Notes under the pieces: model-generated | Seen by the model: only the letters and a program-made list of their open reading frames with translations | Databases searched by the model: none | Told to the model about the DNA's origin: nothing | Translations under genes and position numbers: made by a program | Source of the DNA: Stenotrophobium rhamnosiphilum | GTDB taxonomy: Bacteria; Pseudomonadota; Gammaproteobacteria; Nevskiales; Nevskiaceae | Reading direction: 5' to 3' | Assembly (NCBI RefSeq): GCF_003052265.1 | Contig: NZ_QANS01000007.1 | Span: 62,001-126,000, forward strand | DNA length: 64,000 nucleotides | In this document: piece after piece, positions 1,970 through 61,761 of the stretch | How positions within the stretch are numbered: the first letter of the stretch is position 1 | Layout: each line of letters begins with the position of its first letter

Positions 1970-2115
1970 GCGTCGCTCCTGCGCATCCTTGATGTAAGGG
2001 CCCTTCGGCACGAACACCTCCGCTCTTTCGCGTTCGCCAAGCGATAGCATCTCTGCACAAACAGCCCCATTCCTGCGCATCCATGCGCCCATGGGGTACA
2101 GGGCATCCTGCCCAT
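1970..2115 (-). repeat. family F dispersed repeat, copy F0
   Basis: Read on the minus strand, this copy begins after the T-run of the P450 terminator with a hairpin at 2113-2101 (stem GGGC/GCCC, loop AGGAT) and then CTGTACCCC. A second hairpin follows at 2088-2075 (GCGCA/TGCGC around TGGA). About three modules spaced ~47-48 bp follow, ending near 1975. A reading frame crosses it on the minus strand, but its codons simply follow the repeat and I do not regard it as a gene. Confidence 0.7.
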
Positions 2116-2145
2116 AAAAAAAGCCGACTCCTGCGAGTCGGCTTT
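2116..2145 (-). terminator. rho-independent terminator of the P450 gene
   Basis: On the minus strand an 11-bp stem (AAAGCCGACTC with GAGTCGGCTTT, 4-base loop) is followed by seven T. It lies ~45 bp past the P450 stop codon and faces the right way. Confidence 0.85.
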
Positions 2146-11864: not shown

Positions 11865-11892
11865 AAACCCCAGCTTAGGCTGGGGTTTTTTT
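11865..11892 (+). terminator. terminator of the cold-shock gene
   Basis: AAACCCCAGC pairs with GCTGGGGTTT (4-base loop) and continues into seven T. A family F repeat starts immediately after it. Confidence 0.92.
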
Positions 11893-12132
11893 ATGCACAC
11901 GATGTGCTGTATCCCGTGGGCGCATGGATGCGCAGGAACGGGATCGGTGGGAGCCTTGATGCCATCATTTAATGGTCAGCGCACGAGCGACGCGGTGGGA
12001 GTCTAGATGCCATCGCTTATGGGAACGCGAAAGAGCGGAGGCCCCCGAGCAGAGATGTCATCTCTTGTAGGAGCGCGCAGGAACGGGATTCTCTCCCCAA
12101 ATGCAGGGTCACTAATAGGCCGCGCAGGAGTA
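11893..12132 (+). repeat. family F dispersed repeat, copy F1
   Basis: It begins at the end of the terminator T-run with hairpin GCACA/TGTGC around CGA (11895-11907), then CTGTATCCC and hairpin GCGCA/TGCGC around TGGA (11920-11933). Five modules follow, aligned at their AGGA or equivalent at 11934, 11983, 12031, 12079 and 12126 (spacing 49, 48, 48, 47). This fills most of the 410-bp gap; a short in-frame reading of the units at 12007-12207 is not supported as a gene. Confidence 0.75.
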
Positions 12133-15610: not shown

Positions 15611-15636
15611 GGGCGGCCTGACGGCCGCCCGTTTTT
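15611..15636 (+). terminator. rho-independent terminator after the PhoD gene
   Basis: GGGCGGCC pairs with GGCCGCCC (loop TGAC), then GTTTTT. It sits ~210 bp past the phosphatase stop codon with no gene between, and a family F repeat begins directly after the T-run. Confidence 0.85.
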
Positions 15637-15876
15637 ATGTACAGGATGTACTGTACCCCGCGGCGGCAGGATGCCGAGGAGCGGGGTTCTCGCCCCACGC
15701 GCTGGTCTCTATTACAGACCACGCAGGAACGGGATTCTCACCCCAAGAACAGACATAAATAAATGGCCGCGCAGGAGCGACGCGGTCAGCGAACTAGATG
15801 TCCTCTATTTCAGAGCGCGCAGGAGTGGAGTTCTCGCCACGCTCACTACCATCCCTAAATGGCCGCGCAGTGCAGC
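15637..15876 (+). repeat. family F dispersed repeat, copy F2 (best-ordered array)
   Basis: Hairpin 1 is at 15639-15651 (GTAC/GTAC, loop AGGAT), followed by CTGTACCCC. Hairpin 2 is at 15664-15676 (CGGC/GCCG, loop AGGAT). Tandem units then follow, with AGGA at 15677, 15725, 15773 and 15821 and AGTG at 15869: exactly 48 bp each time. Several units also carry a GGGG-TTCTC-CCCC-like inverted repeat. The rest of the 515-bp gap (15401-15610) shows nothing recognisable. A reading frame crossing it exists because 48 is divisible by three; I do not call it a gene. Confidence 0.8.
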
Positions 15877-20538: not shown

Positions 20539-20572
20539 TCCCCTCACCTGGCAACAGCTGAGGGGATTTTTT
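20539..20572 (+). terminator. rho-independent terminator
   Basis: TCCCCTCA pairs with TGAGGGGA, followed by TTTTTT, ~75 bp after the small membrane protein. A family F repeat follows immediately. Confidence 0.82.
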
Positions 20573-20860
20573 ATGGACAGGAAGTCCTGTACCCCACGGG
20601 CGCAGGATGCGCGGGAGTGGGGTTCTCGCCCCGCTCACTGAGCTCTCAAAAAGAAAAATGCGCAGGAGGGGAGGCGTCGGCGCCGTGATGTCACCTCCAA
20701 AAGAGAAAGCGCTGGAGCGGAGGCCTCTCCCCACGCACTGAACTCTCAAAAAGAAAAATGCGCAGGAGGGGAGGCGTCGGCGCCGTGATGTCACCTCCAA
20801 AAGAGAAAGCGTTGGAGCGGAGGCCTCTCCCCAGCCACTGAACTCTCAAAAAGATGGGGC
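20573..20860 (+). repeat. family F dispersed repeat, copy F3
   Basis: Hairpin 1 is at 20575-20587 (GGAC/GTCC, loop AGGAA), followed by CTGTACCCC. Hairpin 2 is at 20600-20612 (GCGC/GCGC, loop AGGAT). The units that follow have expanded into a longer dimeric repeat, listed separately. The rest of the ~600-bp gap (20861-21062) shows nothing I can name. Confidence 0.75.
20643..20854 (+). repeat. 100-bp tandem direct repeat, 2.1 copies
   Basis: Units start at 20643, 20743 and (partial, ~12 bases) 20843. The first two differ by only a few substitutions, so the duplication is recent. Each 100-bp unit is a dimer of two family F modules (internal spacing ~51 and 49 bp), with GCAGGAGGGGAGG in one half and GGAGCGGAGG in the other. 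Confidence 0.9.
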
Positions 20861-61599: not shown

Positions 61600-61613
61600 A
61601 GAATTTTTCTTTT

Positions 61614-61745
61614 GTCATTCCGAACGTAGTGAGGAATCTTGCTTTATGTACAGGATGTACGGTATGCCGCGGGCGCAGGATGCGCAGGAGCGGCAAGCTC
61701 GCCATCAAGGGCAAAGGCGAGATCCCTCGCTGCGCTCGGGATGAC
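61614..61745. repeat. family F element (copy F4) nested in a B-variant repeat
   Basis: GTCATTCCGAACGTAGTGAGGAATC starts the outer palindrome at 61614 and GATCCCTCGCTGCGCTCGGGATGAC ends it at 61745. Between them lies F4: hairpin 1 at 61648-61660 (GTAC/GTAC, loop AGGAT), hairpin 2 at 61673-61685 (GCGC/GCGC, loop AGGAT) and one GCAGGAGCGG unit. The F element therefore replaced the centre of an older repeat. Confidence 0.82.
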
Positions 61746-61761
61746 AAGGTTGAGATTTGAT

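Follow-up and report, generated by a model that had tools for sequence, protein, structure and literature searches.

The five dispersed repeats recognized in the window analysed here, a 64,000-nt stretch of the Stenotrophobium rhamnosiphilum genome, are probably headed by copies (F0 to F4, Table 1) of a single dispersing palindromic element of about 51 nt. It would be of the REP/RPE-like kind with an architecture of its own, favouring transcription terminators and carrying CsrA-type hairpins. The element consists of a small hairpin, a linker and a second hairpin surrounded by a further stem, both loops being of the A(N)GGAX type and set on C–G pairs. It is multi-copy and patchily distributed, its stems covary, it is placed behind terminators in this genome, and in other genomes it occurs in tandem and as in-frame insertions, with one exact empty site. 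If this reading is right, a large new family of small palindromic repeats would be added to the gamma-proteobacteria, with two unusual habits, namely terminator placement and the addition of 17 codons, in frame, to genes of core enzymes. The spread of repeats with no known transposase, such as RPE, would then become testable in Marinobacterium, Amphritea, Dyella and Solimonas, and loops so strictly of the A(N)GGAX form would provide, if transcribed, a genome-wide set of natural CsrA sites.

Table 1. Positions and composition of the five element copies of the window, of their stems and of the Rho-independent terminators preceding them (L numbers are rows of the terminator test).
Feature	Position	Strand	Details
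F0, copy	2059..2116	-	79.8 bits
F0, hairpin 1	2113-2101		GGGC AGGAT GCCC
F0, hairpin 2			GCGC ATGGAT GCGC
F0, enclosing stem			CCCCAT/ATGGGG
F0, upstream terminator	2117..2142	-	GCCGACTC/GAGTCGGC + T-run (L038)
F1, copy	11892..11949	+	78.0 bits
F1, hairpin 1			GCAC ACGAT GTGC
F1, hairpin 2			GCGC ATGGAT GCGC
F1, enclosing stem			TCCCGT/ACGGGA
F1, upstream terminator	11868..11892	+	CCCCAGC/GCTGGGG + T-run (L042)
F2, copy	15636..15692	+	80.1 bits, covariance model
F2, hairpin 1	15639-15651	+	GTAC AGGAT GTAC
F2, enclosing stem	15656-15661/15681-15686	+	CCCCGC/GCGGGG
F2, hairpin 2	15664-15676	+	CGGC AGGAT GCCG
F2, third AGGA	15677-15680	+	
F2, upstream terminator	15611..15636	+	GGGCGGCC TGAC GGCCGCCC, then G + T-run (L037)
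F3, copy	20572..20628	+	77.1 bits
F3, hairpin 1			GGAC AGGAA GTCC
F3, hairpin 2			GCGC AGGAT GCGC
F3, enclosing stem			CCCCAC/GTGGGG
F3, upstream terminator	20540..20572	+	CCCCTCA/TGAGGGG + T-run (L045)
F3, tail	20604..20854	+	~100-bp tandem units with more GCGCAGGAG-like motifs
F4, copy	61645..61701	+	81.8 bits
F4, hairpin 1			GTAC AGGAT GTAC
F4, hairpin 2			GCGC AGGAT GCGC
F4, enclosing stem			TGCCGC/GCGGCA

The sequence was reread at each of the five heads, and the two hairpins proposed in the preliminary description lie and fold where it had placed them. Hairpin 1 indeed differs between copies and remains paired (GGGC/GCCC in F0, GCAC/GTGC in F1, GTAC/GTAC in F2 and F4, GGAC/GTCC in F3), and hairpin 2 has CGGC/GCCG in F2 and GCGC/GCGC in F0, F1, F3 and F4. 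Two features had been overlooked: an enclosing stem of 6–7 bp around hairpin 2, which covaries too, and an AGGA or GGGA motif on the 3′ side of this stem. Loop 1 of F1 reads ACGAT, GGA being lost in this copy.

The same description had seen selection on stem-loop structure behind these changes. Such a constraint is supported, since the paired changes go beyond both slid and shuffled controls. The covariation could be assessed in an alignment that owes nothing to the fold, made with MAFFT on 16 of the 53 copies of the genome (A2; 14 pairs, 224 cells). In A2, 98.7% of the cells are paired, and both sides have changed in 9 of the 14 pairs, giving 28 double-change cells versus 0–2 when the partners were shifted by 1–3 columns. 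On four of five measures none of 500 shuffles equalled the observed value; the remaining one, a count of additional pair types, was no better than the shuffles (10 versus a mean of 9.9). Two larger sets, A3 (58 copies) and A4 (108 matches, at the listed loci of other genomes), were aligned to the covariance model and are thus biased towards it. Double-change cells amount to 149 in A3, with 98.1% of its cells paired, and to 137 in A4, versus at most 39 and 28, respectively, in the slid controls. In the enclosing stem they affect all six pairs in A3 and four of six in A4, where the outermost pair is unpaired in 50 of 96 cells. Covariation thus extends to each of the three stems, but the double-change cells cannot be counted as independent events, given the relatedness of the copies. 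Folded one by one, the five heads are only moderately better than shuffles (z from −1.4 to −2.3), and the structural case rests therefore on comparison. G–U pairs are scarce (10 of 791 cells in A3; 15 of 1,292 in A4, excluding the outermost pair), and their scarcity does not favour RNA over single-strand DNA. With most copies of this genome lying behind a terminator and one tested gene copy being antisense as well (see below), folding at the DNA level accounts for the stems equally well.

When all genomic copies were collected with a covariance model built from 16 of them, 53 were found at E ≤ 1e-3 in the 3.96-Mb genome, with a unit length of about 51–58 nt and a best E-value of 1.5e-19. A second model, built from 58 matches, was used for the family and the order. 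The family is patchy between relatives: 6 of its 58 genomes are positive, this one counted, with 53 copies here, 5 in one genome of the same genus and 0–2 in the other 56; the same six are the positive ones among 85 genomes of the order. At the class level, with a threshold of 1e-6, the element is detected in at least 56 of 369 genomes and at least 44 of 272 genera, the former being a lower bound since the scan used strict filters and scored 15 candidates per genome. A pattern scan of named genomes returned at least 112 stretches, of which 80 were read, the others being used only in the local search for Y2 transposases described below. Among the stretches listed, the carriers include Marinobacterium, Amphritea, Sedimenticola, Thiohalomonas, Dyella, Luteimonas, Rhodanobacter, Solimonas and Erwinia, together with many uncultured gamma-proteobacteria and a few assemblies named as other groups. 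Copy number ranges from 1 to 78 in 33 genomes picked from the listed stretches, and hence positive by construction. A single 51-nt query gave no match in 5,426 E. coli genomes; in E. coli plasmids, a weak 82.6% match appears in four records, one of them within an IS66 transposase gene. Phages gave no match to the element, and two stretches from viral contigs match an exact pattern. Some sites are common to species or genera. The element occupies in two genera (L061 and L062) a spacer read by eye as gap–pgk, with a terminator-like hairpin before both, and another spacer with the element (L036/L065) is common to two species. The distribution is therefore partly vertical.

Placement is highly regular in this genome. 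Forty-three of the 53 copies directly follow a Rho-independent terminator on the same strand, compared with 20 of 2,112 control positions. Between the final G/C pair of the terminator stem and the element there are 4–11 nt in 43 of 45 measured copies, with a mode of 7. In F2 the T-run of the terminator extends into the element itself, and no terminator was detected upstream of F4 (row L035 of the terminator test). Upstream of 47 of the 53 copies, a same-strand open frame of 80 or more codons terminates within 200 nt; on the other strand this holds for 34. In other genomes the habit depends on the 5′ end of the copy: 21 of 32 TATG-type starts lie behind a terminator, versus 2 of 68 for all other starts (mostly GACG, GATG and GCCG, with second units of tandems counted in) and 21 of 1,886 control positions; 8 of the 108 matches, too short or near an end, were omitted. 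Two or more subfamilies with differing habits are likely.

Units can be repeated, nested or inserted in genes. Tandem units of 51–52 nt are found in Marinobacterium (L128), Pseudoxanthomonas (L156) and at locus L105. A module of about 48 nt, with two extra GGA hairpins, is lodged within the hairpin 2 loop of seven copies of this genome (L072, L075, L076, L079, L081, L082 and L084), and a related one is present in L091, from a genome of the same genus. Two of the forward frames run through the element without a stop, yielding peptides like KDVxVPRAQDAQERP or DAQGCxSxAGAGCAGA. Gene candidates were open frames spanning it by 40+40 codons on either strand, a list used solely for choosing candidates, since many such frames are spurious in GC-rich DNA. 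The PQQ dehydrogenase of Solimonas provides the one clean empty site: its gene segment measures 900 bases with the element versus 849 in three sisters, an exact 51-bp in-frame difference. Alignment with five sisters (L275, L277 and L278 being excluded by the motif filter) gives a clean gain of 51 bases, with a target duplication of at most 2–3 bases of ambiguity. Compared with solved structures, TrpC (16 residues), EngB and YfiH contain additional residues where the element lies, flanked by homologous sequence on either side, and so does PrmA, in which the element is antisense. According to Pfam, the insert lies inside the domain in TatD, a site of varying length among sisters, and in Aldolase_II, between domains in a 3-hydroxyacyl-CoA dehydrogenase, and, in a prolyl oligopeptidase, past the better of the two stretches that match its N-terminal domain; L130 had no Pfam match. 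RibD was discarded as a clear insertion: it has about five extra residues relative to the best structure, and a 17-residue gain is therefore not shown by this protein.

The element is proposed to move as a folded single strand, either DNA or RNA copied back, by means of an enzyme supplied in trans. Like group IIC introns, it would enter preferentially at a terminator hairpin followed by its T-run, and a need for folding during movement may be what keeps the stems paired. No transposition event was seen, and no mobilising enzyme was found. Two families were considered as mobilisers. Y1/RAYT proteins (PF01797) are matched in 30 of the 40 genomes tested and have no match in 8 of 33 element-bearing genomes, several of the eight being metagenome assemblies; Y1 is thus not required in the same genome, and this family was set aside. 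The IS91/ISCR-like (Y2) family is the sole transposase family recurring by elements, at 10 loci, nine of them within 800 bp. The Y2 label is based on Pfam Y2_Tnp, matched by 5 of 6 frames, and on NCBIfam, matched by 4 of 4, although every NCBIfam score falls short of its cut-off. Elements lie inside or adjoining Y2 genes in several genomes (L093, L130, L152, L159, L172, L204, L225, L288 and L296), at differing positions and in either orientation, and no Y2 gene was found in the ~1.5-kb flanks of the 53 copies, nor in the window. As these genes carry copies themselves and were not found in those flanks, Y2 was not retained as the mobiliser; it remains a lead, as a candidate for either mobiliser or favoured target. 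The other neighbour clusters, among 14 listed, each appear to correspond to one spacer shared by related genomes; L108, L118 and L155 were excluded from this clustering.

The GGA-type loops had been likened to Csr/Rsm targets, and they do fit this description. Of 154 distinct copies 50 nt or longer (from 166 rows), 133 have the pattern C-A(N)GGAX-G at loop 1 and 135 have it at loop 2, the flanking C and G being required and not the full stem. In the loops that follow this rule N may be missing or may be any base and X is variable, A, GG and A being constant; the loops outside the rule include GGA losses, as in F1, and rows where the pattern expression failed. This is the target seen in RsmE structures, A(N)GGAX in a 5- or 6-nt loop closed by a C–G pair, as summarized in the accessible part of PMC4005645. 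Of the 53 copies of this genome, 48 fit at loop 1, 49 have a site beyond position 26 (which may belong to the nested module in module-bearing copies), and 42 have a 3′ AGGA(A/G). The genome contains a single csrA match, with an intact core (MLILTRRVGETLVI...VSVHREEI), and csrA is matched in 33 of 35 genomes tested. The search gave no match in G110 (35 copies) and G107 (8 copies), which is weak evidence because both are metagenome-assembled. E. coli CsrA, used as a control, was detected. With Rfam 15, the window and 10 element loci gave no gathering-score match, the best rsmX hit reaching 20.6 bits versus a cut-off of 56, on the opposite strand.

These loops are what CsrA would be expected to bind, judging from their sequence. 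RNA containing the element would present CsrA-type hairpins, and read-through or 3′ transcripts should thus bind CsrA, which may be a mere side effect or may contribute to the tolerance of the element by its host. The Csr reading may then be a layer on top of a dispersing element, and the sponge role put forward in the preliminary description is possible. A more ambitious proposal would combine both aspects. In this proposal, mobile CsrA-binding hairpins would be spread over the whole class, entering at the 3′ ends made by intrinsic terminators or as 17 extra codons in genes; with dozens of copies per genome, their read-through RNA would form a dispersed CsrA sponge linking termination efficiency to the Csr regulon, and CsrA recognition would be part of the life cycle of the element. 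We consider it doubtful.

As a separate observation, an Acidiferrobacterales assembly (G089) has 53 elements and 12 csrA-like matches, many of them partial. GGA hairpins are found in five of the nine stretches around csrA-like matches (L256-L264). An element-encoded CsrA was considered for this assembly and rejected, the hairpins being read as insertions into or beside csrA fragments.

The repeats might instead have been selected by the host as CsrA/RsmA-binding RNA. Read-through transcripts, each with two or three A(N)GGAX sites, would jointly titrate CsrA, substituting for or supplementing a CsrB-type sRNA. Agreement of the loops with the RsmE rule (133 and 135 of 154; PMC4005645, accessible part) speaks in its favour, as do the counts in this genome (48, 49 and 42 of 53), the presence of CsrA in 33 of 35 genomes with its core intact here, and the frames ending upstream on the same strand (47 of 53, against 34 on the other strand). 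The nested module, which adds two GGA hairpins to seven copies, and the precedent of a 3′ UTR-derived RsmA sponge in Xanthomonas (as outlined in PMC7694677) go in the same direction. However, 43 of the 53 copies start behind a terminator, outside the terminated transcripts, and are therefore present only in read-through RNA. Elsewhere copies lie in frame in genes, and even antisense in prmA; G–U pairs are few (10 of 791 cells); and E. coli possesses CsrA but gave no match in 5,426 genomes with one 51-nt query. The lack of a csrA match in G110 (35 copies) and G107 (8) adds a weak argument, these being metagenome assemblies. This host-selected origin appears thus unlikely.

The paired changes in the stems could also be purely mutational, template switching in single-stranded hairpins copying one arm to the other without any selection. 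Quasi-palindrome correction of this kind would keep the stems of any inverted repeat perfect. The stems are indeed nearly perfect (98.1% paired, 10 G–U pairs in 791 cells), with probably few intermediates. Yet A-GGA is conserved in loops whose N and X positions are free to change, the enclosing stem, although interrupted by hairpin 2, has double changes in 6/6 pairs (A3) and 4/6 (A4), and the architecture recurs across the class, which makes this explanation very improbable. Chance likeness of GC-rich sequence following terminators deserves hardly any credence. The composition is GC-rich, and L108, L118 and L155 carry an exact 21–22-mer pattern without hairpin 1, that is, outside the element; these three loci, however, give no match with the second model. 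Chance similarity is taken as refuted by this test, by E-values down to 1.5e-19 and by the slid and shuffled controls of A2; the slid controls of A3 and A4 also speak against it.

The dispersing element preferred here can be compared with several known systems. Rickettsia palindromic elements (RPE) are 105–146 bp long with 12-bp terminal inverted repeats, as given in the available text of PMC2229807. RPE and other protein-fused small repeats are likewise short palindromes lying between genes and in frame in conserved genes (PMC2229807, PMC3733652, in the parts accessible), and the present element also supplies an in-frame palindromic repeat in conserved protein genes. It differs from RPE proper by its unit of about 51 bp (51–58 nt), which lacks the length and terminal repeats of the latter, by the A(N)GGAX loops of its two hairpins and by its preference for terminators. 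The GTAG and CGTC superfamilies of REPs share palindromes mostly downstream of genes, some of them intragenic, with complementary stem changes; they are described in the accessible sections of PMC3733652 as short stem-loops tagged GTAG or CGTC, whereas the element has three stems. The GTAG terminal tag is absent, the 5′ ends of the copies listed being mostly TATG, GATG, GACG or GCCG, and the 3′ end of those listed in other genomes mostly GCGGC. CGTC does appear at one end as the reverse complement of GACG-start copies, and not of TATG- or GATG-start ones. The architecture of CGTC REPs, which include RPE-4 and RPE-6, was not found: a single stem of 8–9 bp with leading A–T pairs, a 4–5 nt loop and a CCA tail (PMC3733652, same sections). 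As a whole, the element does not seem to fit either REP superfamily of this 2013 survey (Di Nocera, PMC3733652), as far as its available text defines them.

Among regulatory RNAs, CsrB, RsmX, RsmY and RsmZ similarly display several A(N)GGAX loops closed by C–G, some of them 5-nt loops without N. Unlike these sponges, the element is dispersed in 53 copies, mostly behind terminators, with no discrete RNA gene evident. RsmU, a 3′ UTR-derived RsmA-binding sRNA or sponge of Xanthomonas, resembles it in that the 3′ region of a gene possibly serves as an RsmA sponge. It differs in that its long form contains the terminator, it comes from a single locus, and RsmA is still bound after GGA changes (PMC7694677, accessible part). 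Group IIC introns, according to the available portion of PMC4424553, insert at intrinsic transcriptional terminators, a preference comparable to the 43 of 53 copies observed here. These introns are ribozymes with a reverse transcriptase, whereas the element has 51–58 nt, no such parts, and no Rfam match in the window. A Whalefall-1 RNA near the array in L166 was discarded, the hit scoring 21.7 bits versus a cut-off of 37 and aligning to a different GC-rich inverted repeat. No description of this family was found in the parts of the open-access literature that were searched, subscription papers lying outside the search.

The surroundings of the heads in the window vary. F4 sits between the halves of another repeat, at 61612-61746 (TGTCATTCCGAACG...GGAATC and GATCCC...GGGATGACA), which may resemble the CGTC/dRS3 type, and two other copies of this genome, L046 and L072, come after the same upstream half-repeat. 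The tails of F0, F1 and F2 contain motifs similar to the GCGCAGGAG-like ones of the F3 tail, with varying tail lengths. In F3, unit 2 of the ~100-bp tandem duplication is 89% identical, and the third unit is partial.
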